From Antedon bifida (lineage: Eukaryota; Echinodermata; Crinoidea; Comatulida; Antedonidae), in NCBI GenBank assembly GCA_963402885.1, contig OY727095.1, positions 14,823,001 to 14,887,000 on the forward strand: DNA of 64,000 bases, given 5' to 3'. A program made the position numbers and the translations under genes. Below, one piece after another: positions 36,001 through 60,782 of this stretch. Within the stretch, counting starts at the first letter, position 1. Each line of letters begins with the position of its first letter. A model generated the notes under the pieces. It ran no database searches, was not told where the DNA came from, and saw only the letters and a list, made by a program, of their open reading frames with translations.

Positions 36001-36636
36001 GAATTAAATTATTATATTTATTATATTAATTACAGTAGGTCAAACTTTAACCAAAATGCAGCATTAAGAATGAAAACATTGACATTGCAAAATATGAATT
36101 AAAAAGACACACAGACTGATAAATGTGTACATTATTAATAGTTATCAACAGCTTTTAGATATTATTCACAATAAATTGTGTTGTTGAGTGGAAAATATTA
36201 TTGTCTTGGTCACAATATATTTAGATTGTCAAGGGTCTAATTATTACATGATTTCTTGATTTAAAATACAATTTAGCATCATAATCATAACTACCGTAGT
36301 TATTAATACAAACAAATAGCAACATTATTATCATCAGTATCATTATATCACCATCAAACACATATTTGCTGCCCTCATACCCCATCCCCTTATCAATTTG
36401 AATTTTATTCATTTATCAAATTATTATTTTACTTTAACATGTGTATAGATGCAATATACACTTTGAAAAAACAATACAATCAATATTTGAAAAAAACCCA
36501 CTTTTTGTTTCCATATCCTACCAATCAAAATGTGTATGCTAATTATGTAACTTCAGATATCTAAACTGTAAATAAACATCTATTTTTAAATAGAAAGAGT
36601 AATTGGTTTTCAATATGAAATGACAAATAAATGAGT
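33030..36636. other. No gene; AGGCCTAG-rich and AT-rich DNA
   Basis: From 33890 to 34440 the palindromes TAGGCCTA, CTAGGCCTAG and TACTACTAC dominate. Possible hAT-like termini (CCCCCTGGTTACGGGCCTG at about 33125, CCCCCTGGCTACGGGC at about 33818) flank GC-richer DNA. From 34450 to 36636 the sequence is very AT-rich with nothing recognisable. Confidence 0.5.
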
Positions 36637-39634: not shown

Positions 39635-39710
39635 ATGTTAAGCTTAATAAAACTAAATATCAAACATGATATATTATTTACATACATAAAACTGGCATTG
39701 CATTACCCAC

Positions 39711-40086: not shown

Positions 40087-40328
40087 CTATTGTTCTTCTT
40101 GGGAAATTTCTGAATAGCGTGCTCTCTGTCCGTCTGCTGCTGCGTTTGTTGACTGAGTACAAGACTTGGTGACTTTCTTATGTACACACCAGATACAGCC
40201 ACTACCAACAGTTACCAACAATCCAATACCAATGCCAATTCTTGCTGCTAAGCCATCATGTATAATAATTAAGATGACAAAGGCTGCCAATAGAATTAAC
40301 CAAAATGCAAAAACTATCCACCGGTAAT
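40087..40328 (-). other. Last exon: two membrane segments and tail
   Basis: The acceptor TTCTCTTTTAG at 40329 enters in phase 1, as required by the donor at 47308. It encodes WIVFAFWLILLAAFVILIII, a short HDG turn, a second Gly/Ile-rich hydrophobic segment ending in WCVHKK, and a polar tail to TAG at 40087. Two segments with a short loop suggest a hairpin anchor with both flanks on the same side. Linkage to the upstream exons rests on frame compatibility across an intron of about 7 kb that contains the Ty3 element. Confidence 0.6.
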
Positions 40329-43300
40329 CTAAAAGAGAAAATTTGTCATAAATCCTTATCTTGTTTTAAAAATATTCTTGACAGGTTTCAAGGTTCTTAC
40401 AATTACATTAAGAGTTTTTCTTAAAATTACACAATTTCTACCTATCAATATATTTGTTTTTATTGACTTTTTATATTGACAAAAAAAAAAATATTTATAG
40501 GTAAAAGGTATACAAAAATAATTTTTACAAATTGAAACTACAGAAGGTTGAAAACAATGCTTGAATTTAAAAACAATTTTTGAGACTCCGAAATAGAATA
40601 GTTAAATACCTTTTAAAAACTTCAACAAACATTTCTTTCGGCTCGGTCTAGAACTAAAAATGTACACAAATTATTATTAAAATTCTAACTAACAATTATT
40701 AAAATTTTATAATTAATCTTAAAGTTACTTTTTTCAGACTCCTTCTACCTCTTGCTATAAGATAAGTATTAATTTTCGATCAATAAATAGAATAAACATA
40801 AATAACCATTTAAAACATTAGTTTATTCTAAATCAGTGAAAAAAATCATTAGATTTCCAGTAAGTTAACATTGCTCCAATTGTATCTTTGTTTACCAATT
40901 TACATACGCGCAATACTTATTTATTGATTGATATGGTATAAACAGGGAGTTCCCTGGTATAAACATACAACACCAGCAGCCAATTGGCAGTGTGTTTGTA
41001 CTGAATGAAAAATAAACACACTGAGTAAAGTTAATACCAGGGTATACACATAATTAGGAAAGAAAAAGGTGGTGCATAGGCATGTATAAAACCAGGGAAG
41101 AGTTAAATTACAAAGTTCTTGTTTCTGCATCAAAATAAAATATTTATTGTACTAGTATTTTTGACCATAGGTCATCATCAGGTACTGATAGAATATTGGT
41201 AAATTATAGAAAACAAAGGAGTCTATTATGGGCTTTATGGGTGTAACAATGAACAAACAAATAACAAATTGACAATAACATTGACAATAATTATAACTCA
41301 TGCCAATCAGATAGACAAGATAGTACTTAATTCCTAAACGATTTAATATTGAGTCTGAGAGTTCCAAGTTGAATCATTTTACGTTTTCTTTTTGTCCTAT
41401 AAAGCCCATAATGTACCCTTTCTCTACATGTATTCATCTTTTACCAATATTCATCAGTGCCTGATGATGACCTTTGATCAAAAGTACTAGTGCAATAAAT
41501 ATTTTATTTTGAGGCAGAAACAAGAACTTTGTCTGTTTTATTATAATTATAATTATACATAATTAATTTGGTTAAAAGTACAAAGCAGTTAATTATATTG
41601 CTGTAAATCTATTGTTTGAACAAAAATGTTAAATGTCAAATAAAAGTTTTGGTGTAACACAATAAACACTTACCCTTGATTTTGTGGCTGCTCTGGATCT
41701 GAAATAATAAGAATTAAATATTGTGAATGTTATGTTATTTTTATCGATAATAAATGAAGAAACTCTCAAGTAATATAAGGATAGTCTTTATTGTAAGAAA
41801 TCTGTAACTGAACTGTACAAAGTGATATCAGTAAGGTGGCTCGTGATTGGTTAATCTATATGGTATGACTATGGTGTCTTATTACTTTATACAGTATATA
41901 GGTCGCTATACTAAAGCAGTATTATTATAACATCTCCCTCCTAGGATTATTTAAAGTTTATTTGTATGAGGGGTTTATCTATCGTTGCGTTACGATGTTT
42001 ACAATGCTATAGATATTTATTTTATTAACTTTAAGCGTGCTATTAATTCTCTTCTATATTCTAATTTCTATATTTTTTTTTTTTAAATGTCCTCTATATA
42101 TCATTGTTCATAATGTTCAATCTCTTAGTTTTGGTGGTTGCTTGCAAATCCGTTTTGGTCTGTCGTGTATCGCTAATGGTGGTAATTTTCTTGTTTCCGT
42201 TTGGGGTTCTTGATCCTTGTTGATACTAGTAGTTAGTTCTTGTCTTGGTGTCTCTACGTTTTGTGGCGGTGGTGGATTTTCAGATAATTGTGGTTTGTTG
42301 TTTTCTTGTGTGGCTGGTGGTACTGGTTTCGGTTTATCTGGTTTGATATTTATTCTGTCTCTTGTATATTGTGATCCGGATGCTGTTTGAACGGTATATT
42401 TTCTTGGTGAGTGTTGGGTGATTACGGTAGCTGGTGTCCATGTCGAATTTGGTTTCGTTTGGAATCTACATGGTTGTCCGATGTAGATTGATGTACTTGT
42501 GTCCGTAGGTTGTCCTTCGTATGCGGCTGTTCTTTTTTGAAGGTTTTCTCCGTATTGTTTTGCTACGGAATTTGGTGTGTTATTTATGGCAGGTAGGTTG
42601 GTTTTGATATTCCGGTGTCCGAACATTAGTGTGAATGGGGACGGGATGTCTGTTGAAATCGGTGTGTCTCTAAGAACGCATAGTATCTCGTTCATGTCTG
42701 TAAGTGTGCTCTTTTTTAGAAGTTGTTTTACAGTGGCAATGTTTCTTTCTGCTCTGCCATTTCCGGATTGGTGGTATGGTGCGCTTGTGGTATGAATTAT
42801 TTCATGTTGTCTGCAATATTCTTCAAACTCACTGCTCACTAGCTGTGGCCCATTGTCAGAAATCATCGTCTCTGGATATCCGAACATTGAAAATGTTTGG
42901 TCTAGTTTTGTGTATACTGCCTTGCTATTTGTGCTGCTCAGCTTATCAACCCAGACGTATGCCGTGTAATAGTCGACACATATGAGAAAGTTTTGGTTCT
43001 GGATTTCGAACAAGTCGATTCCGATATGCTGCATTGGCGTGTTGGCGTATATTGGGATTATTGGTGGCTTCTTTTGATTTCTCTGGTATGTCTGACAGAG
43101 GTCACAATCCGTTATCATTTGCTCTATATCAGCGTTCAATCCAGGCCAATATAAGCTCTGTCTCGCACGGAGGCGGGTCTTCTCTATTCCTTGGTGCTGC
43201 TTATGCAGTATTCCAAGGAGTTTCTTTCTCATGGATGTTGGGATAACGATTCTTTGTCCTTTGATGACAATTCCATCATATATGGCCAGTTCTGATCGAT

Positions 43301-46300
43301 GCTGCCAGTATGCGTGCGTGAATTCGTTGCATTGGTTCTTTTGCGTTGGCCATCCCTCTACTATATATGGAATGAGTGCTTGTAGGACAGTGTCTGTTTT
43401 AGTTTTCTCTCTGATATTGTCGATGACAAAAGGTGCCATGTTTGTGACTTCATGGACTTGTACATTCATGTCAGGATAAGTGAAGGGTTCACCTTTGGTC
43501 TCGATGCATCTGGATAGACAGTCTGCTATAGGTACTTGTTTTCCTGGTACGTATTTTATCTTGCCATTATATCCTTGTAGTTGTAGCATTAGTCTTTGTA
43601 GACGCGTTGGCATTTTAGAGAGGTCTTTCTTTTGGATGCTTTCCAGTGGTTGGTGGTCTGTATGTATTGTGAAGTGTTTCCCAAACACATATGTTCTAAA
43701 ATACTTCACAGACCATACCACTGCGAGTAGTTCCCTCTCGATGTTGCTATAATTTGATTCAGCATTTGTTAGTGACTTTGATGCATAGTGTACTGGTCGG
43801 TCATTTTGCATCAGTACGGCTCCAAGTCCCTTTTGAGATGCGTCACATTGGATCGTTATCTCCTCTTTGCTATCGAAATACGCAAGTGTTGGGGCGTCTT
43901 GGATTCTCTTTTTTATTTTTGTTAGTGCATCGTCGTGTGTGTTTGTCCACTTGAAGACTGTGTCTTTCTGGAGAAGCCTTCTGATTGGATCGGTAAGTGG
44001 AGCTAGCTTTAAGAATTTTGACAAGTAATTTATGAGTCCTAGTAATGACATCAGTTCTTGTCTGTCGGTTGGGGCTTTCAATTTGCTTATTGCCTTAACC
44101 TTTGATGGGTCAGGCCGCATGCCCTCTTTGGATAACATATGTCCAAAGAATTTTACACTATCTTGTAGGTAACGACACTTTTCAGAATTTAGCTTGATGC
44201 CGCTTGTTCGACAGGTTCTAAATATGTCTGTGACTGCTTTGTCATGTTCTTGTCTTGTTTCGGCTGCTACCAATAAATCGTCTGCGATGCAATACACATT
44301 TGGAATATTTTGGAAGAGTGCATCCATTTCTCTTTGGAAGAGATCTTGTGAACTTGAAAGTCCAAATGCTAGTCGCTTAAAGCAGAATCTTCCATATATA
44401 GTGTTAAATGTCGTCAGTGCTTGACTGTCTTCATGTAGCGGGATATTCCAATAGCCACTACGTACATCAAATGTACTGAAATGTTGACATCCACTTAATC
44501 TAGGAAGTACCTCGTCGAGGGTTTGTGTGTAGTGATGAGGTCGCTGGATGTATTTATTTAGGTTTCTTGGGTCAAGGCAGATTCTTAGTGTTTTATCTGG
44601 TTTTGTAACTAAGACTATGGAATTTACCCATTCTGTTGGCTCGTCCATCTGTCTGATAATGTCCAAGTCTAACAGTCTGTCCAGCTCTTTTCTCAGAGGT
44701 ATTTTGAGTACATCCGGCATTTTGCGGACGGGATTCACCACAGGTGTAGCTTCATTTGATAGTTTAATTTTATAGGGTGTTTTCATACATCCTATGCCTG
44801 TGAAGATGTCTTTGTGTTGTTGGATTACTTCCTCTTTTTTGTCTGTTTTTCTTTCCGACACCTCGCAAACATCAAAGTGTCCATTGCAATCGATGCATTG
44901 ATCGTCGCATAAAATTCTAACGATTCCCAGTGCTTTGCAAAGTTTCAGTCCGAATAGGTTATTCCCGTAGCTTGACACCTGGAATTTAGTTTTGTTCACG
45001 ATGTGACTATTATGTTCTGTGTCAACCGTTATCTCACCATGGTTCTGAAATTTTCTACCTCCATATCCAGTTAGGATTGTGTTGGTTTTCTTGATCGTGT
45101 ACTGTTTCCCAAACAACTGTGTATAGGTTTTATAATTGATAAGGTTGGCTTGCGCACCTGTATCGACTTTGCCTCGAAGGAGCATTTGTCCATTCGGTGT
45201 GGAGAGTTTTATTGTGGCAAGTTGGGTGTCTTTGCCATCGATATCGTTGAATTGAATTTCTCGGATGGTGACTTCTTCGAACCCGTAATTTGTTGGGTCA
45301 TCCGAGTCTTCTATTGTAATCTCCTGCGTGCGACGATACTGTTTCCCTTTGTTTGGGCGCTTTTGATTGTATTGTCGGTCCTGGGTCGTTTTGTTGAATT
45401 GTTTTGCTCTACACTTCCTCGCCCAGTGATTGCTCTTGCCGCAATTTTTACATTCTTTTCCAAATGCGGGACATTGTCTGGACGGATGATCTGTACCGCA
45501 GTTGGAGCAGTTTTTGATCAGTTTTAATTGACTGTGGCGTTTACCATAGTTGGTGTTTTGTTTTATTTCCTCAACAGTGGTGCCATTTTTTGAAACTCTT
45601 TGCAATTCGTTAAATTGTTTGTCGGCTGCTTCTTTGGACTGAATGTACTTGATAGCGTCGCTATGTGTGTAAGTCTTCGCTTGACGGAAGAGCTTTTTCT
45701 GTACATCTTCAGAGTTTGTGCCGAATTTGATTGCTTCAAGAATGTGCTGGTCGTGTTGCTCATCGGGGTATTCACACTCCTTTAATAGGATTTCCACGCG
45801 AGCAACATACGCATCTATGCTTTCCTTTTGTTTTTGTTTAAGGCTTCGAAAGTTCCAGCGGGCTAGATTAAAATTTGTTTTTGGTTGAATAAACGCTTCA
45901 AATTTTTCCCAGTGTTTCGGGAGGTTGTTTTTCTCTTGCTCAGTAAGAGACCATCCACGTCGGATTTTCATTGCCTTTTCTCCCATCCACAACATGACAT
46001 AGCTAACTTTTTGCTCTTCTTGTATTGTGGATAGGGGCCCTGCAAAGGCCATTTCAACTGTTTCCTTGAAGTGTTTAAATTGTTCAAGTACACTTGGTGA
46101 GTCAAATTCCACTTTGGGCATCGTTACCCCCTGGAGTCCTAAAGGGGCTATTACAGGTTGATTTGTAGGCTCTGCTTCAGCCATGATTGATGCCTTATTT
46201 GACTGGGTTTTTTTTTCTAGGTCAAAACAAAGTAGAATGGAATTCCTTGTTGACAGCAAGTTGTTGGTGATCAATCAACTTTAGTACAGTATGAGTTGGG

Positions 46301-49300
46301 AGTGTCTTACTCCTTTCTTAACTTGTAGATAGTGTATATTATCCTATGCTAGGTACTGTTGGTTTTGCTTCAAGTTTTATCACAATAATCCTCTTCTTAT
46401 GAAAATGAATACTCACAGTTTTTTTTGTTTTTGTTTACTGTACTCCCAAGTAATATGTGACGTATTTCCAATTTCAGGTATCTTGTCCAATTAACAATTC
46501 TGAAGGTAACAAAGCTCCCAGTGAATCCTATGGTATAGAAATTTCACAAAAGTCCGCTCTGTTGTTTCTGCATGTATTTACCTCCTTTTCTGATAGAAAA
46601 CTGAGGTCGGGGTCACCATGTTATGTTATTTTTATCGATAATAAATGAAGAAACTCTCAAGTAATATAAGGATAGTCTTTATTGTAAGAAATCTGTAACT
46701 GAACTGTACAAAGTGATATCAGTAAGGTGGCTCGTGATTGGTTAATCTATATGGTATGACTATGGTGTCTTATTACTTTATACAGTATATAGGTCGCTAT
46801 ACTAAAGCAGTATTATTATAACAGTGAACAAAATAAACATTTGGTTATTTAAAACACAATTTAAACTATAACCTGATCAACCAATATAAATAAAAATGTA
46901 TTTGTTTTTTATATACTACATTATATGTTCTCTATTTTTTAAACCTCCTATTGTTAATGTCATGTTGTTTTTACCTGGCAATAAATGAATGAATGAAATT
47001 ATGATATTAGCCTAATAAATATGAACAAAATTAAAAGCTAATACCACTTTATATTTCTGTTTATAAAGACTTTCTTTTTTTGAATAAATGTTGAAATAAA
47101 AAAAAAGGATATGAAAAAGAATTTAGCTGAAATCCATTCTATAAAATCACATTTAAAGTTATTTTAACCATATAATAACACAACACATATAATTATGTTT
47201 AAATATGTTCATCATTTTCTATTGTTGAACTTTGCAATTGACTTGACTTGTGTCACTGTTGAGTGGTGACGAAATAAAAAGTAAATTAATTTATGATCCT
47301 TAACTCACCACTCTTTGCTTCAAGTTTTCTTTCCTGTTCCTCAATTATCACTTTCTTCATTTGTGTTTGTAATTCCTCATTAACAGTAACTGGTGAATCT
47401 GATGTTAATTGTTTTGTTAATTCGGTTCAACAAAAATACAAAGACAGTTATACATTACACATTAGTGACAAAGCTTTTTATTTTGTATGAGTGACACACA
47501 AATAAATAACTGTTTATGTTCATCATTTTATATGTATACATTTATTATTATAATATATCTATTTAGTTTTATTTTAAAATGTAACCACTTAGATGATTAA
47601 AGCCCCCTTCCCTACGTTTTTTAGATCTAATTTAAGATCACAAACTATATTTAATGTAAAAATAATACTATATGGTCCTATTGCGATAACTTTTTTCGTC
47701 TTTAAAAGGTTTAAAATGTGAAAAATAAGTCGATTCTAATAATTATAGCGGCCCGCTATAAATCCCAAAATGCATTGCGCGCGGATTGATATTTTTGTTT
47801 TTCACCTGTAATTCGCCCACTTTTCGATCGATCGTGAGGCCAAAACAAATGGAAGACTCCTAACTTTTCAGCGAAAATACCGGGTTTTCCCCAATTTGTA
47901 TCAACGGAGTCTGGCAAAAATAGATAGACAATTAATGCAGCAACTATACAACGTCAGGTTAGGTATATAGCTAGCGTACGATATTCGTACGTTACCGATG
48001 TTTACCAGCTAGGCCTACAAAACTAAGCCTAGCTAGGCTAGGCCTAAGACCGTCCACGAGAGGTCGATCGCCGCAAGCTACTTAGGTAGTGCATTGTTTC
48101 TCACTTTTTATCATAATTTACCATAAAACGTACATTTAAGACAAGGAATGACATGGTTTAATGTTTTTAAAGTGATATATATGTAATATTTTCCAAAAAA
48201 CGTCCAAAATTGCAGGGAAGGGGTCTTTAACCTCTGGAATTAACCAGTGGATCCTACCTTGTTGACTGCCTTGGATGTCAGACTGTGGTAATGCAGATGT
48301 CACTGAACCATCTGTGAAAAAGTAGGGGTTTTTTTTGGAATCTTGTGAAATAATACAATTTTGAATTTTTTATCCAAGTAAGTATAATCAATTATTTCTT
48401 ATTTCACTGCTATTGTCATTAGTATTATTTTAATAAGATGGGAATTTAAATTGTGGTAGATGGCAATAAATTATTTATCAAACATTTACATTTATTTCAG
48501 TGAATTTGTTTTTATTGACTAAAACAGATAGTTTAATAATATGAATGTATATTTTTAACCAGTGGTGATGCTGGGGAGGGGGAGGGGGAGGGTTTTTCTA
48601 CATTGGCCTCCATCGAGGGTTCATTGTGGACCAAAATATGTACTGTACAGTGCCGTAGCCAGCATGAGGCAGACAAGGCACTCGCCTCATCTGAAATTTT
48701 CAATTTTTACCAGCCACCCAATATTTTATATTAATAATTATGTTTAAAGCATCTTTTCCTTGTCTGTTTTTAACCTCTTGCTACGGTCTTGCTGTAGTTT
48801 ACCAATGCGTAAGAATTATGTTATCGATCTAATTGTTCATATATACACCAATTTTTTAATTGACGATTAACCCTCTGTACCGTGGGGTAACTAAAATAGA
48901 GGTTTCATTGTAGGCCTATATTACTAATCAAAAGACATGCCATTTTCGTTTAGCCAACATCTCATTATAGCTAAATTGTCAATGTCCTGTATGTCATAAA
49001 TGTCTCACCATAAATCGATGGTATGCACGCATACACCTAGGAAATAATAAACTGGTAGGGAGAAAATGGATGCACCTCCTCTCCCCCCTTCCCCACTCCC
49101 CAAAAAAAGGCTTGTAGGCCTGACATTTTCAAAGTATGAGTTAGCTTAGCTCAACCCCAACCATGGTGGGCTGGTCCTGTAGACTTATAATTTTGTTTCA
49201 TATTTCAATGTAAACTGCAATTTCCAGGGATCTAGCAGCTTTATTTTTTCAACATTTTCTTAGTTCAGCCCAATGATGGTAGAGCTTGTCCTGGAGTTTT

Positions 49301-51319
49301 ATAATTTTGTTTCATATCACTGCATAAGTGCAATTTCCGGGGACCTAGCAGATTTATTTTTCAAAATGTCTTATAGATTAGCCCCAGGGGAGGGGGGTCA
49401 GCCGGCCAAGGAGGGGTTGTTGTTGTTGTTAGTTAGTCCCGTATTTACAATTTTCGAACACAATTTTGAATTACATTTTCTATATCTATAATCTGTTTTC
49501 CAAATCACAAAATTCCAAATTCTTCATTAACATATTTTTGTGTTTATGCTATTATTACATTAGTAAAGAAATATCTTTATTATCACTTTCTTGTCATATT
49601 CAGCAGTCTCCTTCTCGTCTTTCCCACTATTGCCTATACATAATCAGTTAATACATAAAATAATAAATACATATCAACTTGTATAGTATATAAACAATGA
49701 TTGAAATTAAACCAATTTTTCATTTAAATTAAATTACCATCATGTAAAATTTTAAAACAAATGAAAGATATGAGTAGTTACATTACAATTACCTTCAACA
49801 ACATTATACTCCAACAGTATTTTTCTTGCTTTTCCTCCAAGACGATCTGCAAATATTTGTATTTTGTCTGGATTATCTGCTAATTCTTCCTCTTTCTCCA
49901 GATGGAGAACTGCATCCCATACATTGGAGAAGCTATATTTTGTCAAATCATAGTAAGCAGTAACATTATGTAATGCATCTGGGTCAAGTTGTTTCAAGGT
50001 CTTAAACAGTTGCTTTCTGTAAAGCGACAATTTGAATGTTTTATCAGTATGTTTATTCTCAACCTTGTTGTCTGTCATATACTTTGATACAAGATTTTTG
50101 GCCTGTTGGATTTCAGATGTATTTGTAATCTCTAACAGCAAGTTAACATTAGTTGGTGAGATTAAACCTTTGTCTTCAAGTTTATTGAGCAAGTCATTTG
50201 CGTTAAAATCTTGATTTGTAATTTCACCAACATCCAACTTATCAAATAGTAGGAACCTTAGACAACGGTATATTTCACCGACAAAGCAGTTACCAAGACG
50301 AGCTTTTAGAATTCGGAAATTGTCAAAAGTTTTAGAATCTGAAAATAAAATTACTGACCATTATTTTGACAATGACTATTTTCACTGATTCCAATCAAAA
50401 TGAGTTTGATGTAAAAATATATATTGTGCAAAACTATGACAACACACTGACAGCTAAAACTCGAAATAAAGGCCCATTTACACTAGGACGATAACGATCG
50501 ACGATAATTAGATAAATATGCATTTTTATACAAAACAAAAGAAAACCAAAAAAGTTTAATACTAGAACTATAACCATCTATGCTGCCTTCTTTGATGAAA
50601 ATAACATTTTCACACGTGCAATCAAATGACGTCATGATTAGTAAGAGCAATAATATCGTGACAATACAACGATGTTATTGTTTTTATTGACCATGACGAT
50701 TCCAGTCACATATTCAAGACATTTCCGGTGAAAATGATGCATTGTATCTGTATTAAGAAAGCATAAATTTATTATATATATTTTCTAAATGTAAGTAGTA
50801 CTAAAGAGTATTATTACCTTGCCTAATACCTCGGTTCCATGCACCTGCACCAGAAGACACACCTGTACCAGAAGACACACCTGTACCAGAAGACACACCT
50901 GCATCAGAAGATACACCTGCACCAGAAGATGTGCCTGCAACAGAAGACACACCTGTACCAGAAGACACACCTGTACCAGAAGACACACCTGCACTAGATG
51001 ACACACCTGCACTGGAAGGAACACCTGTACCGGCATTGGATAAAACAAATTAGCTAAAAATTACAGTAAATATATTTGCTATAGTATCATGTAGTGGAGT
51101 TGTGGCTTGGTGGTTATGATGCTTGGCTACCACTCCAAGGGTCCTGGGTTCAAGTCCCGTCATATGTCAGGATTTTTTCTAAGGACCAAATTACTCCACT
51201 CCCAAAGACTTGTAATAAGACTTTGTTTATGTAGAGCATCTTGTGTATATGTTTGTCTTGTGAACCTCTGAGGGTCCCTAATGATCAGCAATAGCTTGAT
51301 GGATCACCCTCATTAAATA

Positions 51320-51359
<40 letters not shown>

Positions 51360-54300
51360 TTTAAAAGTCCTTTTCTCATATAGTATCCCCATTTTACACT
51401 TTCTCTGGGAAAAAATTAGAAACAAGTGTTTCTCAACTGATTTGTGTCATATGGGGTCTATATATCCACCAAAAAAAAGTTCCAGCTCATCTGGCCTGGG
51501 GAAAGCCGCCATTTTGGATTTTCAAAATGGCCGCCATAAAATACAGGTTTTTGCTCATATCTCCTCTTCTACATCATGCATGGAAATGATTTTGGTGGCA
51601 AAGTGTATGTTTTGAGGGTCAAGGAATCTAAATACAGCATTTTGAAGTTCACTCAATAACCGCCATATTGTTTTTCAAAATGGCCGTCTTAAAATACAGA
51701 TTTGTGCTTATCTCAGCTTCTACATCATGTATAGACATGATTTTGGTGGCAAAATGTAGGTTTTGACGGTCAAGGAATCCAAATACAGCATTAATTTGAA
51801 TTTCACCCAATGGCCGCCATTTTAAAAATCAAAATGGCTGCTATAAAATTTACAGATTTTTCCTCATATCTCAGCTTCTACATCATATGAACGTAATTTT
51901 GGTAGAAAAGTATATGTTTTGAAGGTCAAGGAATTCAAATATAGTATTTTAAAGTTCACCTAATGCCCGCCATTTTGTTTTTAAAAATGGCTGCCATAAA
52001 ATTTACAGATTTGTCCTCGTACCTCAGCTTCTACATGGAAGGTGCATGGAAGTGATTTTGGTGGCAATGTTTATGTTTTGAGGGTCAAGAAATCTAAATA
52101 CAGCTTTTTGAAGTTCACTCAATGGCCACCATTTTGATTGTCAAAATGGCCACCATAAGCTACAGGTTTTTCCTAATTTATGAGCTACTATGATTATGAT
52201 TTTGCTAAGCCTATGTTTTGAAGGTTACAGAATAAAAACAAAATTCAGCTTTTGAAATACAGTTGGAAAGTGATGACGAGAATAAGTCAATATGTTGGTG
52301 ATAATATATGGGAACCACAATGATTATGGACCCATGAGATACTGTACACAAGAAGATATCAGCGATGTACTGTAACTATATCATTCGCATGAAGAACCTA
52401 AAAATAAAATATTCTAAAAAAGTTTGTTAGACGACATTTTAAGATATTTTCCAAATCCTAAAGAGAAGCATGGCCAATTTTAGTTAAGCATATTCCAATC
52501 AGATACATTATAGATAAAGCAATTTAAAGCAACATATCTTATGTGACTGAATGTATGGTTACCTAATACACTGGGGACTAACACTACTTCACCATAACTG
52601 GTCTGGATTTATGCATGTAGGTATAATGCGATAACTGGACAAATCGACGATAGTTTATGCCGATCATTCTTTTTTATCCAATTAACATGTCAACAGTTTA
52701 TACAATGGTACAGCCACTCTGAAAACGTATATCTAGCTGCTCATCTACCAGTCATAATAATCAGACACGGAGGAGTTTATCTTTTCAGGAGCTTTCTTGG
52801 TTATATTGGACATACTGGTGGCTTGAGGTTTTGAAGTTGTGCATAACCTACTTTAAAGAGAGCTGTATATTCTAAAGATCTTAGAAGATGCAGCTATGTA
52901 TCATATAATGATGACACGAGATGAGGATGTACCATTTTGTCTCCAGATATAGACACAGTATAGGACAATTGACCATGATGGCCAATATGCCCGAACGACA
53001 AATTTCCATATACATACAATACAAGATGTTCCAAAAGAATGGATATCATGCAACGTGTTATAATGGTGAAGAATCAGTTTTCAGACATGAGCACATGACA
53101 ATAGAGAAAACCTTATGTATCTTGAAATTTGTCTTTCAGCATTTCCAGATATAGCCTTCCACTTTTGGCATTTTGGCCATGACCAGCTGCTGCAAATATG
53201 AAAGCATACTGTAGATGCTATATCTGAACCTGGAGCTCCCAATTGCACAATCATGCCTAAAAAGTTATACCATCTAATGATACAGCCACAGCTTAAATGT
53301 TCTTGATATCTTTTTGACTTTCCCAGAAAGCTCTTAAGAATCTTTCGAGTTTGACGACAAATGCCAGTTTTCTTTCTCTAATTATTTGCATTACTTTACG
53401 TCACATTGGTTGATCGAAGGTTATTAGGATGGCAGATAAGCAGCTAGATTTAAACATAAATGCAGACCATTTAGGGTGACTAGTGTTGATCTCCCAGTGT
53501 ATTACCATGTATTCTTAAGATATGTTACTTGCTTTATCCATAAGTTGTACTTTTAACTGCAAGTTGGCCATGCTTCTCTTTATATTTGGAAAATATCTTT
53601 ACATGTCTATGTAACTTCTTTAGAATATCTTGTTTATTAGTTTCTTCTCGCGAATGATAGTTACAGTACACTCTCTGGTATCTTCTTGTGTACCTCTTTG
53701 GTCGTAATCAGTATGGAACTCGATCTTGTGATTAACTCACGACGTTGACATAGTAATAATGAGGATTGTAATAGCGATAGATCTCGGAGACTAGACAAAG
53801 GGGATTGTACATAAATGTTGTCATTATTATATGTTGTGCCAGTTTGATTGGGAATTTTAAAACTATTACTGTATTTAACAAACTGTATTAAAAAAAAGCA
53901 ACATCTAAAGCCAGTGGAGCAGAAGCCTTCAACTATGAAGTTTGGTCCTAAATGGAATAAGAAGATCTGATCACTTTCCGACTCTGTATTTTAGAATGCT
54001 GATTTTTTATTCTGTAACAATCAAAACATAGACTTAGTTATCAAAATCATGTCTTCATTATGTATATGAGCTACGAAATTAGCAAAACCTGTATTTTATG
54101 GTGACCATTTTGAAAAACAAAATGGTGGCCATTAAGTGAACTTAAAAAAAATGCTGTAATTGAAATCCTTGACCCTCAAAATATATACATTGCCACCAAA
54201 ATCACTTCCATACATTATATGGATTGGAAGCTGAGATAAGAGCAAAAATCTGTATTTTTATGGTGGCCATTTTGAAAAACAAAATGGCGGCCATTGAGTG

Positions 54301-57300
54301 AATTACGAAAATGCTGTTTTTCGATTTCTTGACACTCACAACTACACTTTGTCACTAAAATCACGTTCATACACGATGTAGAAGTTGAGATGAGTACAAA
54401 TCTGTATTTTATGGCGGCCATTTTGAAAAACAAGATGGCGGACATTCAGTAAACTTCAAAATGCTGTATTTGGATTCATTGACCCTCAAAACATATACTT
54501 TGCCACCAAAATCATATCCATACATGATGTGGAAGCTGATATATGAGCAAAAATATGTATTTTATGGCGGCCATTTTAAAAATCCAAAATGGCGGCTTTC
54601 CCCAGGCCAGATGAACTGGAACTTTTTTTTGGTGGATATATAGAACCTATATAACTCAAATCAGTTGAGAAACACTTGTTTCTAATTTTTTCCCAGATTG
54701 GCCCTTTTTAGACTTAAAATAGGGATACTAATAGGCGTGCTAGCAAAGTGTAGTTATAGATGCCTGCAACTTTGCCGGAACTTACCATAAAACTTTTCAC
54801 ATTGGCCGGAATATAACCTATATTGCATTAATTAAATTCTAAATATTGTAGTCTGTTTATGTTTGTTCACTACATATAATATGGCCTTGTCACGTTGAAA
54901 CACTGGTTTTCTTGTCTGATCACCAAAGTTAAGCAATGTTGGACCTGGTTGGAGCTTGGATGGGAGACCATCTAGGATTATCAGTGCTGTATATATGAAG
55001 CTAGGTCCCATCAGGCATTTGATAACAGCAATGATGACTCTTATGGCCGCCCCTGCATCTACTGTAGTATCTGCCTCAGACGTATTGGTTCATGCCTTTC
55101 CTCTGGTCAAGGTGAAACGGACTTAATCTACATCATTACCATAATTAATATTATAACATACCTAGATTTGGTCTTGATGTCTCAACATCGCCTATAACAA
55201 ATAAAATATATAATCATTATTTCAACTAGATTTGAACTCAATTATGGCATTATGACCTGAACTGAAGAACATGATATGTTGTTAGTGCTGAATTCTGTCT
55301 ATTTTGTATCATACAGTATATTCAGCATAATCAACGTATAATCTGTATACATATTACATACAGTGTAGAATAGGTGAAATTACGAGACACGCCATTTATT
55401 CATATTTTTAACATGGCGACGGTATCTGAAATGAAAAACTAAGATAGCAATTTCGGAAGGAAATTATCTCAGGAACAACATATTAACGTGTAGAAGAAAT
55501 TTGAATACGTGAAATATAGATGCGCGCTGGTTTAAATGTGATGAACTATGACGCAAAAGGTGAAAATACAACGTTTTTTATTCAACTGGCCATATGATGA
55601 CGTCACAACATCTGATTGGCAAAATGTTCACATGAATTCGTATCTACAATCCAATAGCTTCCAGAAAACGTTTTAATCATGATTATCACTTTTTATTCTG
55701 ATGAGCTATAAAAGATTGAATTTACTGTAAAGATTAAAATAAGTGACCCACGTTATTTACATTTTTAGACATGATGACGTCATAAAAATTAAAACATTTT
55801 TAACTCATGCGAAAGATAGTTGATTGACCTAGACAATATCAAAATCGGAGTGAAAATGGAAAAAGGATAAGTGGAGATGCGCTCTATTAAATGTGATGGG
55901 CTATGACGAAAGATACAAAAATCCTATATTTTATATTCGCGTGACCATACGATGACGTCACAATGTCCGGTTAGCCATATTAATGCATGATCCGATATCT
56001 ACAACTCATCAACTCAATAAAAATAACTTTCATTGTTTAGTTTAGAAACTACGACTGTTTAAAAAAAGGCATAATTTTGACAAATTTTTTATTTTTTTCA
56101 TCAAAAACGCGTGCAAATTGTCCAATTCTATGTGCTCGTATGACGTCATTTGAAGTCGAAATAGTTTAAAAGTCGGTAAAATTACTAGAAAAGGCTGGAA
56201 AAACATAAATCACTCGAAAAAATGATGTTTTAAAAATTTATGCACGCATGGGAATTTTTGACATGCTCAAAATGACATGAAACGCGTAGAAAGTTGATTA
56301 GAAATAGTTTTTTCGCATTTTTTAATTTTAAATGCATGTGCTCGCGTAACTTTGTGTAAAACACGCAATTTTTTTTCCACAGAAAGTTAGCGCATGATAT
56401 AAATTAAACTTTTGCAAAGTTTCAATTTAAAATGTTATTTGGTTTTTGACCTATGTTAAATACGCGAAATTCATAAAATCGCGCGTAAGTCACGTTGCGC
56501 AATTGTAAACATGCTGAAAATGTTCGCTGCACAACTTCATATGAATGACGATATGTTTAGAAAGTTACGAAATGTTATGTTTGCAAGTTTTACAGATACG
56601 CATGACACAAAAATTACAGAAAGAAAGAAGAAAAAGAAAAAAAAGATGATGATGATGATGATGATTTCGTACAATCACAAGGAGTTATCCTGCAACTTCG
56701 TTGCGGATAACTAATAAAAAAAAAATCAGTTTTATATATGGTATATATGGAAAAACTTGACCAGTGATATTATACTGGAAATTAAATAATAAATTTAAAA
56801 AAAATTAAGATGAGGAAATCAGTGAGAATGAGAAAAAAAACCACCCAACTGATATTCAAAATAAGAATATTTCGCTTTTGATATGCAGAAGAATTAAGGT
56901 GTTTTAGGAACTAGCAATGTAACCAAAGTGTATTGTAATGCTAAATAAAAAACAAGCCAACACCTATATTGTTTTCACCCCATACTCTAACAATGGTACA
57001 GTCAATAATGGCTAGTTATTGTCATGGATGGTTAATGTCTGATTACCGTTTTTTGAATACTATATTTTTCCAATATCATCATTCTAAATTTAGACTTGTT
57101 TTTGCATTTTAAATACTTACAATTCACTTCCACTGGATCAATATTATTTGACTCTTGTGATAGTAATACTGTTGCCTTTAAGACTTTTGCTGATGAATTT
57201 TTCTTTTTTTTTTTTTTTCTTTTTAAAAGAAATGTCTTGTATGGTTCTGTACGCCATAGGTCATTAGCCTTGACAGTCTAGGAAAACAATGAAGACATAC

Positions 57301-60300
57301 TCAGATAAAAAGTTACAGTTCTAAGGCACTGTAGTAAAATTGATTGCTGTGATAAATAAATATTATACAATTAATTATATATTTTGTTTAATAATTTTTT
57401 TTTATACTGGTAGTGCTTTCATTCAAGTTTTTCTCCCAATGACAAATATAAAAATGGCTATACTGCAAATAAAAGTGTGCATGCATAAAAGACTAATGAA
57501 AAGACAGAATCTATCAAACTTTATGTGAAAAAGAAATGTGATGTGCCCATATATGGACACAATGACATCATATCACTACCATATTTGGGCATATCACTAC
57601 CATATTTGGGTACATCACATTTTTTTTTCAAGCTAGTTTGATAGTGTAGACAGTAGTTTTATATGAATTTTTGACATTACATACTATATATTTTTTTATA
57701 ACTTTTTTAACTTATTCTAAACGTTTTATGCTGTTTTTTGAAGACAAATTTCAAATTGTGTATTTTTTGACAATAAAGTTATCTTGAATCTTAAGATCTT
57801 AACTCAGTATCATGATCCAGTATGCTCAATTGGATAGCAATACAGATTTTATTTATTGATCAAGTTTATGAATTCTCAAGTTATGTGGTATTCCAGCAAA
57901 AACATGTTTAATGCATATTCTTTACCATGCCAACCTACTAAAAATATTGTGATAATACATATATAACATGCATACTGTATATAAAACAAATATTCTTACT
58001 TGTTCTTCCTTCTGAACTTTCCATTCCTGTTTTGATACTGTTACAGTAACTTTCATGTCCTTATACATAGATAGTATACCTACAGGTGCTATTAAAGGCT
58101 GCTCACCGATTTTTCTGTGGGCTTCTTCTACCATCTGAAATACATATATACCTAATGTTATTTGTGACTGTGTACATATTTGTTTCTTAACTATCTGAGA
58201 GGAGTACAGGACATTCATCATGTTCACTTCTCCATTACCTAATTTTATAGTTTTAACTGTAAATAGTTTAGGAAAATTTTCTGCCATAAATTTTAATTAA
58301 TGTGTTATTATACGTTAGCTCAAATTTAGTGCTTGTAAATTCCCCAGGTCTGAAGTTAGGTGTCAAGAAAATACATTTTTTCATACTGTACAATTTTAAG
58401 GTATATAAAAATAAGAGAATAAATATTATGCCAAGTTAACAAATCTAAGATAATATTATTATTGACCAAAAGATGAGAAGTACAGTAACAGTGACTAATT
58501 CACTCTTTCTAGAAACTGTGGAAAAGCAACTATTTATTAAATCTATATTCTGAACAGTTAATTGATTGTAAGTAAAATAAGAACTAAATTATTCAAATAC
58601 AGTTTAAAAACAACTTATAGTAATTACCTTTACATCTGACGACTTACAAAGTCTTGTTTGAAGTTGATATTCATCATTTGCAAGCATCTTTCCAAAAACT
58701 TCTAATACCATTTTTTTTCTACCAATGGCACTTCTGGCACGACCCATTAGTCCATAGAAACTAAAATGATTTAATGTTATATAACATCGACCTTTACTTA
58801 AAGTAAAATGAACGTCCTTTCTATCATTTGTCAATGCTATTTGTTTCCATTCGTCTTGAATGTGATCTTTAACAAGTAGAGTGAATTCCCAAAACTCTTC
58901 ATTTACAGCATCATGTGTAAATGACAGTAAACAGGGCTTGTGGAAGATGGTGCCTTCTGGTCCACATTTAACAATAGGTGATATTATTGATTCATGAGGA
59001 TGAAGTACAGGCATGTCTTCCTCCAAAATATTTTCTAGTGATACGTTAACTGTCTCTCCTTTTTCAATTGCTCCTTGATGTACCTCCAACGTTATGTCTC
59101 CATCTTGAAGATGGAGAACTCTGCCGTCTGAGTCCACACTTAGCTTCATAATTTGACCTAGAGAATACAAATATCAGATATAACTTTTAATAATTTGACA
59201 GTATCAGTTATTGTATTACCAGATTACTTGTTAAGTGCTGCGACAATAGCAATCAGCAATAGCAATCAGACGCTGAAATGAGTCATGTGTGCGCTTTTTA
59301 TTTTTTCACTATCATGCACTGGAGTGCAAAATCGTGTAAATCAGCACAATTTAACAGTACGAACCAGCGTCTGCACCGCGGCCCCATAAAAAAAACAAAA
59401 ACAAACACACACCACTTGTATATCTTATAAATTCTGCTACACGACTGTTTTGCTAAGCTTAGGCTAGCTATAGGCTAGGCCTAGGCGGTGATTAGATGGG
59501 TCGCCGAGCAGTGGTGCTTGCCATGGTAGGCCTAGCTTTTTTCTAGGCTAGGCCTATAAGGTGTATTCACCTAAAAAGGTGTAAGTGAAAATAGACCCAT
59601 GTTATAAAACAAATAATGCAAAAGTCTAAACTCGTACATTAGTGGAGATTTGGCGAACTCTCGGGTATTCACAATGTCGTGCATGTCAGACCATTAAAAT
59701 ACCCTTGAGTGTGCCGCATATCCACTAACGCACTCGCACTTGTGCATTATTTGTATATTGTTCTTGAAAAACACTGCACGAAAGATTAATACTTTGGGAT
59801 AAAATGGACTTAAAGCATAATATTATAACATTGTTGGGTCTATAATCAAGGTAGAAGAGCAACAACACAGTCAAAGGCCATAACTGACCAACTTATTTAC
59901 TAAGTACTAGACCACATTGAGGAGATCAATCAAGTTTATTGGTTGTTGAGAAATGTTTATAGCATCTGTTATAATATAGCATCATCTTGCAAAATGGTGA
60001 CGATATACAAGCAATGAATTGATTTAAGCACGTTATCCGATCTATTTTCTAACTTTCTATGTTAAAACATTGGCAGAAATCAAAACACTAACTAACGAAT
60101 TTAAAATTCATAATTGTAACACTATAAAGTCTGATTGTATTTCAACTATTCTACTACTGTACAGTACCACAATGAATAATATCAATGTATACAGAATTCA
60201 CTTGTCTCCATAATGTGCATACCATTTAATGCTTTCTTTGAATCTATTCCAAGAAGACTTCCAAACACTATAATTTTTTCTGGGTTATCTTCTAAAAGTA

Positions 60301-60763
60301 GGCCCATCTCAAGTTTGTAAACTGCATCCCAAATATCTTTGATCTCCGTACCCAGGTCATCATAATGAGAAATCACCCTTTGTAAATCGCTTTGGTCACT
60401 TTCACTCAAGGCCTGAAACAACTGTCTTCTATACTGCGACAACTTTTCTTCATCAGCATTGTGAATGTTGTTGTCCTTTATGTACTGAATTACCAGCTGT
60501 TCAGCACCCTTTAACTGTGTTACTTTAGCGATATCCAGTAAGAGGTTGACTTTATGTTGTGTTATCGTTTTGTTGTCACTGAGTTTATTGATTAAAAAAT
60601 TCTCTGTGAAAGAAGTAGGCCTAGACTTGGTATTAAGTTTGATTTGGAAATGAGCAGGTACATGACCAAAGAGGCAGAATCTTAACCACTTGTATTTTTC
60701 TCCTTCATAGTATTTACTAAAATCCAATTTCAATTGTATGAATTCTTCTTGAAGGTCTCCCAT
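40087..60763 (-). CDS. Membrane-anchored DED-ZU5-UPA-DED protein (FIIND-like), 10 exons
   Basis: Coding exons on the minus strand, 5' to 3': 60763-60223, 59157-58628, 58134-58000, 57277-57121, 55191-55162, 51024-50818, 50338-49793, 48311-48258, 47398-47309, 40328-40087. Each internal boundary has AG/GT and matching phase, and the sum is 2532 nt, i.e. 843 residues. The order is DED-like module 1 (1-181), ZU5 (about 182-320), UPA (about 325-455), linker, hexapeptide repeats (about 466-533), DED-like module 2 (534-715), a charged helical stretch (734-763), two membrane segments (about 767-786 and 792-812) and a cytosolic-type tail. ZU5-UPA proteins (PIDD, UNC5, NLRP1/CARD8 FIIND) act as switches in death and inflammatory signalling. 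The HFS self-cleavage triplet is at residues 311-313. Role inferred: a membrane-tethered death-fold adaptor. The start could lie further upstream, because an acceptor precedes the ATG (exon from 60782). Not confirmed by transcripts. Confidence 0.75.
41110..41532. mobile_element. Foldback MITE with ~80-bp arms
   Basis: The left arm CAAAGTTCTTGTTTCTGC, continuing through AATAAAATATTTATTG and ACTAGTA to GATGA-type words, is mirrored at 41445-41532 (GCAGAAACAAGAACTTTG). The interior is AT-rich and non-coding. It lies in the last intron of the main gene. Confidence 0.75.
41728..41932 (-). repeat. 3' LTR of the intact Ty3-type element
   Basis: 205 bp with TGTTAT...ATAACA ends. The adjacent polypurine tract AGGAGGGAGA (minus strand, 41933-41942) marks it as the 3' LTR. 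Confidence 0.95.
42117..46184 (-). CDS. gag-pol: Gag-pol polyprotein of the intact Ty3-type element
   Basis: The frame is open from 46274; the likely start is the ATG at 46184 (MAEAEP), giving about 1,355 residues. In order it has a gag region, two CCHC knuckles (CSNCGTDHPSRQC and CKNCGKSNHWARKC, about 45420-45510), aspartic protease (DTGAQANLI, about 45140-45165), RT (IADDLL, about 44275-44290) and RNase H (QCDASQKGLG, about 43840; HTDHQP). Integrase has an HHCC finger (HKQHQG...CDLCQTY, about 43090-43210) and the core D/D/E (DYYTAYVWV, SDNGPQ, then GNGRAER). Gag and pol share one frame with no shift. All catalytic residues I can check are present. The C-terminus is Pro/Thr-rich and ends PPKLRD. 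Confidence 0.93.
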   Translation of the reverse strand: MAEAEPTNQPVIAPLGLQGVTMPKVEFDSPSVLEQFKHFKETVEMAFAGPLSTIQEEQKVSYVMLWMGEKAMKIRRGWSLTEQEKNNLPKHWEKFEAFIQPKTNFNLARWNFRSLKQKQKESIDAYVARVEILLKECEYPDEQHDQHILEAIKFGTNSEDVQKKLFRQAKTYTHSDAIKYIQSKEAADKQFNELQRVSKNGTTVEEIKQNTNYGKRHSQLKLIKNCSNCGTDHPSRQCPAFGKECKNCGKSNHWARKCRAKQFNKTTQDRQYNQKRPNKGKQYRRTQEITIEDSDDPTNYGFEEVTIREIQFNDIDGKDTQLATIKLSTPNGQMLLRGKVDTGAQANLINYKTYTQLFGKQYTIKKTNTILTGYGGRKFQNHGEITVDTEHNSHIVNKTKFQVSSYGNNLFGLKLCKALGIVRILCDDQCIDCNGHFDVCEVSERKTDKKEEVIQQHKDIFTGIGCMKTPYKIKLSNEATPVVNPVRKMPDVLKIPLRKELDRLLDLDIIRQMDEPTEWVNSIVLVTKPDKTLRICLDPRNLNKYIQRPHHYTQTLDEVLPRLSGCQHFSTFDVRSGYWNIPLHEDSQALTTFNTIYGRFCFKRLAFGLSSSQDLFQREMDALFQNIPNVYCIADDLLVAAETRQEHDKAVTDIFRTCRTSGIKLNSEKCRYLQDSVKFFGHMLSKEGMRPDPSKVKAISKLKAPTDRQELMSLLGLINYLSKFLKLAPLTDPIRRLLQKDTVFKWTNTHDDALTKIKKRIQDAPTLAYFDSKEEITIQCDASQKGLGAVLMQNDRPVHYASKSLTNAESNYSNIERELLAVVWSVKYFRTYVFGKHFTIHTDHQPLESIQKKDLSKMPTRLQRLMLQLQGYNGKIKYVPGKQVPIADCLSRCIETKGEPFTYPDMNVQVHEVTNMAPFVIDNIREKTKTDTVLQALIPYIVEGWPTQKNQCNEFTHAYWQHRSELAIYDGIVIKGQRIVIPTSMRKKLLGILHKQHQGIEKTRLRARQSLYWPGLNADIEQMITDCDLCQTYQRNQKKPPIIPIYANTPMQHIGIDLFEIQNQNFLICVDYYTAYVWVDKLSSTNSKAVYTKLDQTFSMFGYPETMISDNGPQLVSSEFEEYCRQHEIIHTTSAPYHQSGNGRAERNIATVKQLLKKSTLTDMNEILCVLRDTPISTDIPSPFTLMFGHRNIKTNLPAINNTPNSVAKQYGENLQKRTAAYEGQPTDTSTSIYIGQPCRFQTKPNSTWTPATVITQHSPRKYTVQTASGSQYTRDRINIKPDKPKPVPPATQENNKPQLSENPPPPQNVETPRQELTTSINKDQEPQTETRKLPPLAIHDRPKRICKQPPKLRD
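46606..46618 (-). promoter_or_regulatory. Primer binding site, complementary to tRNA-Trp 3' end
   Basis: The minus strand reads TGGTGACCCCGAC directly after the 5' LTR. Its complement GTCGGGGTCACCA equals the 3' end of animal cytosolic tRNA-Trp plus CCA, as I recall that tRNA. The match is 13 nt and ends at the next base. Confidence 0.75.
46619..46823 (-). repeat. 5' LTR of the intact Ty3-type element
   Basis: Identical to the 3' LTR over all 205 bp. It is followed directly (minus strand) by the primer binding site and followed on the genome side by GTGAA. Confidence 0.95.
46920..47000 (+). repeat. LINE 3' tail fragment
   Basis: TTTTTACCTGGCAATAAATG followed by AATGAATGA is the kind of 3' tail, ending in a short tetranucleotide repeat, left by CR1/L2-type LINEs. 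No coding part is visible upstream. Confidence 0.4.
47309..48311 (-). other. Two short exons before the membrane segment (48311-48258, 47398-47309)
   Basis: The first (54 nt) has a strong acceptor (CCCCTACTTTTTCACAG) and donor GTAGGA; it encodes a polar 18-residue linker. The second (90 nt) has donor GTGAGT and encodes a highly charged stretch (MKKVIIEEQERKLEAK) that looks helical. Both are phase 1 to 1, like their neighbours. A TTAA MITE (47597-48230) lies between them, only 28 bp from the first exon's donor. Confidence 0.6.
47597..48230. mobile_element. TTAA-flanked MITE, copy 2
   Basis: TTAA at 47597-47600 and 48227-48230; ends AGCCCCCTTCCCT and (reverse complement) AGACCCCTTCCCT. It is nearly identical to copy 1 along its length apart from a short indel near the middle. 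It lies in an intron of the main gene. Confidence 0.88.
48400..49700. other. Intron of the main gene; no separate gene
   Basis: The interval holds a possible hAT-type terminus CAGTGCCGTAGCCAG (48647-48661) and G- or C-rich runs (48580, 49080). Two related blocks at about 49150-49240 and 49265-49350 share GTCCTG, TTATAATTTTGTTTCATAT and GCAATTTCC with AGCAG-TTTATTTTT. Confidence 0.45.
49793..50338 (-). other. Exon: DED-like module 2
   Basis: This exon has 546 nt, phase 1 to 1, acceptor TTATTTTCAG and donor GTAATT. It aligns with module 1 over its full length: YRCLRFLLF, NDLLNKLEDKGLISPTNVNL (a DED-like helix 4-5 signature), then LYRKQLFKTL, VWDAVLHLE and DNPDKI. Two linked copies in one protein suggest an internal duplication. 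Intact throughout. Confidence 0.75.
50818..51024 (-). other. Exon: ten GVSSGx hexapeptide repeats
   Basis: Sixty-nine codons in phase 1 to 1. An 18-bp unit (CAGGTGTGTCTTCTGGTA type) repeats about ten times, giving GVSSGT, GVSSGA, GVSSDA and similar units, then GAWNRGIRQ before the donor GTAATA. It is Ser/Gly-rich, probably a flexible and possibly O-glycosylated or phosphorylated spacer between UPA and module 2. As an in-frame minisatellite it is expected to vary in copy number. The acceptor (GGTACAG at 51025) is only moderately convincing. Confidence 0.6.
51094..51356 (+). mobile_element. tRNA-derived SINE, copy 2
   Basis: Same family as 29111-29356: A box 51103-51113, B box 51147-51157, then a long A tail (about 51325-51356). 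It lies antisense in an intron of the main gene. The foldback element begins 25 bp beyond its tail. Confidence 0.9.
51381..54730. mobile_element. 3.35-kb foldback element with ATGGCGGCCAT subrepeats
   Basis: The two ends TAGTATCCC...GGGATACTA are inverted copies, and homology between the arms can be followed inward block by block. GGGAAAAAATTAGAAACAAGTG and the AAAATGGCGGCCAT subrepeats match first. The GAAGCATGGCCAA block then pairs at 52460/53560, AATACACTGGG at 52566/53500 and ATCTAGCTGCTCATCT at 52730/53440, leaving only a short centre near 53.05 kb. The outer parts of both arms consist of tandem units of about 150 bp. Target duplication is TA or ATA. Long, internally repetitive arms are typical of Foldback/Galileo-type elements. 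No transposase frame was found. Confidence 0.75.
54881..54995 (+). mobile_element. 5S rRNA-like SINE head or 5S pseudogene
   Basis: The sequence aligns end to end with animal 5S rRNA as I know it: TTGTCTGATCACC, AAAGTTAAGCAATGTT, ACCTGGTTGGAGCTTGGATGGGAGACC, then GTGCTGTA. The internal control region (A and C boxes) is the best preserved part. Many substitutions rule out a functional 5S gene. A further about 130 bp of unique-looking sequence follows, as in SINE3-type elements, but no second copy is in the window to confirm a SINE body. Confidence 0.7.
55225..56712 (+). mobile_element. Family-1 element, nearly full-length dispersed copy
   Basis: It starts ACTAGATTTGAACTC, lacks the first stem-loop and GTTATCCGC motif through a short deletion, and otherwise follows the array units block by block. 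TGACGTCA lies at about 55600, 55775, 55954 and 56141. A (GAT)n tract at 56646-56666 and the 3' hairpin AGTTATCC-TGCAACTTCGTTGC-GGATAACT (56683-56712) close it. It lies in an intron of the main gene. Confidence 0.8.
57121..58134 (-). other. Two exons of the UPA domain (58134-58000, 57277-57121)
   Basis: The first exon (135 nt, phase 0 to 0) carries MYKDMKVTVTVSKQEW and has an intact duplicate at 4618-4761. The second (157 nt, phase 0 to 1) carries ANDLWRTEPYKTF and then a lysine run coded by 15 consecutive A (57204-57218), followed by KVLKATVLLSQES. Together with the end of the ZU5 exon this makes about 130 residues, the usual UPA size. The A-run is a likely site of sequencing or replication slippage, and one base more or less would end the frame. 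Confidence 0.65.
57511..57644. repeat. Small inverted-repeat element
   Basis: CTATCAAACT (57511) pairs with AGTTTGATAG (57635-57644). Inside, AATGTGATGTGCCCATAT pairs with ATATTTGGGTACATCACATT, and ATATCACTACCATATTTGGG is repeated once in tandem. Probably a small MITE. Confidence 0.6.
58628..59157 (-). other. Exon: ZU5 domain with HFS triplet
   Basis: The acceptor is TTCTCTAG at 59158 and the donor GTAATT at 58627; the frame is open over 176 codons. ZU5 hallmarks include LEVHQGAIEKGE, then SPIVKCGPEGTIFHKPCLLSF and finally CYITLNHFSFYGLMG. The HFS codons are 58760-58768 (residues 311-313). In PIDD and FIIND proteins the peptide bond before this Ser is broken autocatalytically. The exon also encodes the start of UPA (GKMLANDEYQL). 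A broken duplicate is at 5698-5878 and 12415-12470. Confidence 0.82.
59611..59754. repeat. Imperfect hairpin element in intron 1
   Basis: ACAAATAATGCAAAAGT on the left pairs with ACTTGTGCATTATTTGT on the right, with further pairing (CATTAGTGGA / TCCACTAACG) toward the middle. Probably a decayed foldback MITE. Confidence 0.5.
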
Positions 60764-60782
60764 CTCATTGCTTGTTTTCAGT
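60223..60782 (-). other. Exon: DED-like module 1 (start exon)
   Basis: The ATG at 60763 opens MGDLQEEF; the acceptor TTTCACAG ends at 60783, so an upstream exon or 5' UTR exon is possible (frame open to 60782). The first about 90 residues resemble a death-effector fold: KWLRFCLFG, then FLINKLSDNKTITQ and NLLLDIAK-type helices. The second half has a recurring YRRQLFQAL...WDAVYKLE...EDNPEKI...LG pattern. It ends in phase 1 at the donor GTATGC. Module 2 (49793-50338) is its clear paralogue. Confidence 0.7.

Follow-up and report, generated by a model that had tools for sequence, protein, structure and literature searches.

A putative self-cleaving, membrane-tethered protein with two tandem death effector domain modules in the crinoid Antedon bifida

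We analyzed a 64,000-nucleotide stretch of Antedon bifida contig OY727095.1 (assembly GCA_963402885.1, positions 14,823,001 to 14,887,000; hereafter the window), which contains a ten-exon gene for a predicted protein of 843 residues. In this protein, a ZU5 domain with a putative UPA domain lies between two tandem death effector domain (DED) modules, and a hydrophobic stretch read as a membrane hairpin lies at the C terminus. By analogy with PIDD and NLRP1/CARD8, the most likely reading, to which we assign a probability of about one half, is that the product would be a self-cleaving, membrane-tethered tandem-DED switch for cell death or immunity. The analysis directly supports the reading frame, the ZU5 domain, the homology between the two modules, the predicted tandem-DED fold of module 2, and, in the family members found, a conserved Phe at the putative cut site with Ser, Cys, or Thr after it. 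An earlier sequence-only reading of this DNA had proposed a membrane-tethered death or immune switch; the domain order DED, ZU5-UPA, DED, membrane hairpin is supported here, whereas the death or immune role is one that we only infer.

Joining the ten minus-strand exons by script yielded exactly 843 residues and a stop codon, reproducing the single frame with consistent splice sites and phases of the earlier reading. A script check of the exon model found an AG acceptor and a GT donor at all nine introns. The junction phases are, in order, 1, 0, 0, 1, 1, 1, 1, 1, and 1; both phase-0 introns lie within the UPA region, and all seven domain or linker boundaries are in phase 1. The first ATG of the frame sits just past a plausible acceptor (judged by eye), and a noncoding first exon upstream of the start codon is therefore likely; further coding exons may also lie upstream. 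Protein searches recovered 21 distinct relatives (given P numbers below), all labeled Antedon mediterranea, a crinoid, which fits the earlier attribution to an invertebrate deuterostome. No relatives outside Antedon were found in searches with E-value limits of 1, 0.001, and 0.01 (6, 19, and 10 matches, respectively), each covering only the 7,992 or 7,993 best word-sharing candidates of suitable length. One relative, P0021, begins by eye at a Met equivalent to the start of the window protein, which speaks against coding exons farther upstream. Judged from blast with the window exons, most joins of the window gene recur in annotated Antedon proteins: the second half of exon 1 followed by exons 2, 3, and 4 shows the same join in P0007; exons 3 and 4 are followed by another linker and then exon 7 in P0005 and P0010; and exons 7, 8, and 9 occur together in P0013, with 8 additional residues separating exons 8 and 9. 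Because these proteins are, by name, automatic annotations, their joins are support, not proof. A 25-nucleotide candidate exon seen by eye near 41.68 to 41.70 kb was left out of the model, because including it would put exon 10 out of frame.

The ZU5 domain is encoded by exon 2 (58628..59157, minus strand, as are all exons; residues 181 to 357), which also holds the start of UPA. Its identity is far above chance (57.3 bits against a Pfam cut-off of 21; 54.2 bits in the whole-protein scan), and the exon matched Pfam ZU5 at 1.9e-15, UNC5B structure 3g5b at 1.2e-10, and P0007 at 72%. Exons 3 (58000..58134) and 4 (57121..57277) are assigned to the rest of the putative UPA from the exon joins and from blast to relatives. 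An A-rich run in exon 4 encodes extra lysines (KRKKKKKK); runs of at least five lysines occur in none of the 21 relatives. Pfam UPA did not match the window protein, and in P0003 it scored 23.1 bits, below the cut-off of 27. A family profile aligned to residues 12 to 274 of the UNC5B chain, running through the UPA region.

At its end, the ZU5 domain reads NHFSFYG and thus contains HF/S (H311-F312-S313; codons at 58760..58768 by eye), a motif absent from the sequence-only reading. PMC3210808 describes self-cleavage of PIDD at HF/S after each ZU5, cleavage of CARD8 and NLRP1 at SF/S with the second Ser required, and replacement of the essential Phe by the corresponding Leu in UNC5B; it names Ser, Thr, and Cys as nucleophiles for cleavage of this type. 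In our alignment, the UNC5B residues opposite the window HF/S are Q-L-G. Across the 11 complete ZU5 ends of the window protein and its relatives (two incomplete ends were kept out), Phe is present in all 11, preceded by His in 10 and by Ser in 1. The residue after Phe is Cys in five, Ser in four, and Thr in two, and the next position takes seven forms. One incomplete end, which retains HFS, belongs to a partial ZU5-UPA paralog on the minus strand of the window (4603..4764 and 5695..5847) that lacks most of ZU5 and hints that related genes are clustered here. By analogy with the proteins above, we infer that the window protein would cut itself between F312 and S313. The geometry of this site may be nearer that of PIDD, whose motif likewise has His directly before Phe.

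Module 1 corresponds to exon 1 (60223..60763; start codon and residues 1 to 180) and module 2 to exon 7 (49793..50338; residues 534 to 715). The two are 36% identical over 177 residues (E = 9e-31 when compared one against one); their local score is 255, and none of 500 shuffles exceeded 63. By its predicted fold, module 2 is a tandem DED of two packed helical DEDs, and module 1 is a tandem DED through its homology to module 2. With Pfam DED, module 2 scored 22 bits, under the cut-off of 35.9, and module 1 had no match; the best family member, P0018, scored 35.6 bits. It is therefore the fold, and not the sequence score, that supports filing them as tandem DEDs. The paired DED-like modules of the earlier reading are tandem DEDs in this sense, module 2 by predicted fold and module 1 by homology.

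Between UPA and module 2 lie exon 5 (55162..55191), a short linker encoding DVETSRPNL that resembles a P0001 stretch at an E-value of 0.12 only, and exon 6 (50818..51024), a Ser/Gly/Val repeat linker whose best homologue (E = 0.024) is unconvincing. The latter exon consists of 18-bp units repeated in tandem and is open in several frames; skipping it is also frame neutral. Past module 2, the linker of exon 8 (48258..48311) is identical to P0013 at 18 of 18 residues, and the charged linker of exon 9 (47309..47398) matches P0013 at 86.7% over 30 residues. Exon 10 (40087..40328) encodes, by hydropathy, a single strongly hydrophobic stretch of about 40 to 50 residues (approximately residues 765 to 812), followed by a polar tail. 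Exon 10 resembles P0014 and P0011 (40% and 41%; local scores of 115 and 86 against shuffle maxima of 49 and 53, respectively); as both of these have two membrane segments at the equivalent place, the best reading of the window stretch is likewise two segments. The C terminus of P0006 has a similar look but was rejected as an exon 10 homologue, its score of 49 falling within the shuffles (maximum, 53).

A mechanism can be proposed on this basis. After a PIDD- and NLRP1/CARD8-like self-cut at F312|S313, a soluble N-terminal piece (tandem DED 1 and most of ZU5) would remain attached to a membrane-held C-terminal piece composed of the last ZU5 strand, UPA, tandem DED 2, and the hairpin. Once the N-terminal piece was lost or removed, UPA would be able to gather tandem DED 2 into clusters at the membrane, and these could recruit FADD- or caspase-8-like DED proteins and so lead to cell death or inflammation. 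In NLRP1 and CARD8, according to PMC7794386, the freed UPA-CARD assembles, and UPA reduces the concentration needed for filaments; by analogy, UPA and tandem DED 2 may assemble on the membrane.

The relatives are made up of shared parts (tandem DED, ZU5-UPA, Roc-COR, and membrane hairpin) in various orders. Their architectures were read from Pfam scans (20 of the 21, P0017 excepted), from blast with the window exons, and by eye. P0002, annotated but apparently undescribed, reads Roc-COR, tandem DED, ZU5-UPA, tandem DED; P0003 has ZU5-UPA, a tandem DED, and one membrane segment; and P0001 has ZU5-UPA twice and then a DED region. COR, a membrane hairpin, and a tandem DED follow one another in P0014, ZU5-UPA and a hairpin in P0011, and Roc-COR and a tandem DED in P0012. 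Module 2 is 66 to 73% identical to eight relatives, each alignment covering at least 171 residues. Identity across a whole module was seen in no Antedon protein, the top values for module 2 being 73% in one comparison and 75% in another. In a tree of 16 modules, module 1 grouped with P0021 (support, 99/97) and module 2 belonged to a group of 11 rows (98/95) that included UPA- and Roc-COR-linked copies. The tree did not take in the second DED region in each of P0001, P0005, and P0018, the N-terminal DED regions in P0002 and P0006, or the half modules found in P0007 and P0020; module 1 and the P0002 module have long branches, and 4 of the 13 inner forks are open, so that finer placing is unsure. 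A recent internal duplication was rejected on these groupings, which place modules 1 and 2 in two separate lineages; taken with the phase-1 boundaries, they favor exon shuffling. The window gene seems to belong to a crinoid family whose members were put together from exon cassettes in phase 1, which encode tandem DEDs, ZU5-UPA, Roc-COR, linkers, and a membrane hairpin.

Like PIDD1 and NLRP1/CARD8, the window protein has a ZU5 domain with a putative UPA behind it and a Phe-Ser cut site (predicted here) just ahead of the final strand of ZU5; a death-fold domain follows UPA. It differs from them in that a tandem DED takes the place of the death domain or CARD, another tandem DED precedes ZU5, and a putative membrane hairpin lies at the C terminus. 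The Pfam scan of the window protein matched none of the NACHT, LRR, and CARD domains of an NLRP1-type NLR, and the window protein has no His at the distance from the cut Ser that the catalytic His keeps in NLRP1 and CARD8. UNC5 netrin receptors have an Ig/thrombospondin ectodomain, a membrane span preceding ZU5, and a C-terminal death domain. Four of the 21 relatives (P0003, P0007, P0009, and P0011) carry the NCBI names UNC5B or UNC5C-like, and UNC5B is the best solved-structure match over the window ZU5-UPA. In the window model, however, DEDs replace the death domain and the anchor is C-terminal; with no ectodomain or death domain in the Pfam scan and no hydrophobic segment ahead of ZU5, identity as a netrin receptor was rejected. 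Human UNC5CL is a membrane ZU5-UPA-death domain protein reported to cleave itself; the literature search turned up no account of it. Relative to the caspase-8 prodomain, cFLIP, and viral FLIPs, the window protein has two tandem-DED units, lacks a caspase-like domain, and is 12 to 20% identical.

Among the relatives, P0002 shares the succession tandem DED, ZU5-UPA, tandem DED. Unlike the window protein, it begins with Roc-COR, carries Cys at the cut position, has a first tandem DED of a different type, and lacks a hydrophobic C-terminal segment. The claim that no described protein has paired DED-like modules on both sides and a membrane hairpin was therefore too strong as regards modules on both sides, an arrangement that the annotated P0002 has. 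The hairpin recurs in P0014 and P0011; the combination with a C-terminal hairpin was seen in none of the 21 relatives. Published work describes expanded, shuffled death-fold proteins in marine invertebrates, including DED-associated TRADD-N fused to FIIND and UPA-ZU5 (PMC8195603), and new DED combinations in amphioxus (PMC2575513 and PMC3196919). No description of ZU5-UPA between tandem DEDs with a hairpin was found in the open-licence literature searched. As far as these searches show, two features are new: (i) ZU5-UPA flanked on both sides by a tandem DED in a protein with a C-terminal hairpin, and (ii) a cut site that varies among Ser, Cys, and Thr in the members of a single family.

Several other elements lie in or near the gene. 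Intron 9 contains an LTR (long terminal repeat) retroelement (41728..46823) with one long open frame (42117..46274); its identical 205-base LTRs and the GTGAA flanking both sides (by eye) indicate a very recent insertion. In intron 5, a 5S rRNA-like match (54877..54995, plus strand; 52.8 bits) is perhaps a piece of a 5S-derived short interspersed element; it was the only Rfam match in the window at gathering thresholds, and ARAGORN found no tRNA there. The same intron holds an inverted pair of 151- to 153-base tandem arrays (51505..52174 and 54084..54595) with adjoining inverted stretches about 95% similar, resembling a nonautonomous DNA element. Long arrays of 62-base and 60-base repeats (36632..39636 and 27080..27855; 95 to 97% matches) are also present, the first ending shortly past the gene.

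A number of observations weigh against a self-cleaving membrane switch. The exon model is a prediction from genomic sequence. Its least certain parts are exon 6 and the join of exons 9 and 10, which has no direct parallel among annotated Antedon proteins; the exon 6 acceptor and exon 10 were picked to preserve the frame, so that phase uniformity there is partly built in. None of the 21 annotated relatives has the whole domain order within one protein, and the phase evidence is that of the window gene only, the relatives being known as proteins. A sequence-profile search of solved chains with the modules returned no DED (five chance-like matches; best E = 0.32) and hence no residue alignment to a canonical DED, in which an E/D-RxDL charge triad is typical; Foldseek E-values for module 2 were modest (best, 0.013), and the ZU5-UPA part of the predicted P0004 model was of low confidence and too poor to use. 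At the cut site, the truncated start of P0008 has Asn in place of the nucleophile (aligned by eye). The catalytic His described in PMC8081665 (NLRP1 H1186, CARD8 H270) stands 27 residues before the cut Ser. Judged by spacing only, the residue there is Gln in the window protein, and of the 11 complete ends P0002 is the single one with His.

The lack of His at that spacing, the Q-L-G of UNC5B, the lack of any caspase-like or other enzyme domain in the Pfam scan of the window protein, and the fold similarity of caspase-less tandem DEDs to viral FLIPs would all suit a noncutting scaffold or FLIP-like inhibitor, in which ZU5-UPA would have a structural role and the four DEDs would keep caspase-8-like proteins sequestered at a membrane. 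We regard this as possible but not probable, given Ser, Cys, or Thr at the cut site in 11 of 11 complete ends. It is rather unlikely that the locus comprises two adjacent genes, with exons 1 to 5 encoding a tandem DED and ZU5-UPA and exons 7 to 10 a separate tandem-DED membrane protein. P0007 does end after UPA, P0013 does begin at its tandem DED, and exon 6 is a low-complexity repeat, but UPA and a tandem DED occur in a single annotated protein in P0002, P0003, P0004, P0005, and P0010, and the phases of exons 5, 6, and 7 are compatible. A decaying or unexpressed copy within a fast-changing gene cluster is very improbable: the recent LTR insertion, the partial ZU5-UPA copy at 4.6 to 5.9 kb, and the expanded lysine run are what such a copy might show, yet all ten exons are open, the splice sites are intact, and module 2 keeps its similarity to eight relatives.

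Going beyond the single gene, we tentatively suggest that crinoids may have evolved their own large inflammasome-like system, of self-cleaving ZU5-UPA proteins with tandem DEDs replacing CARDs and some members held at the membrane. Swaps of phase-1 cassettes would generate combinations of sensor and output, and the nucleophile would alternate among Ser, Cys, and Thr. If the main reading of the window gene is true, FIIND-type self-cleavage and caspase-8-type tandem-DED assembly, known apart, would be united in one membrane protein, and a natural family with a varying cleavage nucleophile would make the mechanism testable. It would also hint at how exon-phase rules allow an invertebrate lineage to mix the parts of death signaling.
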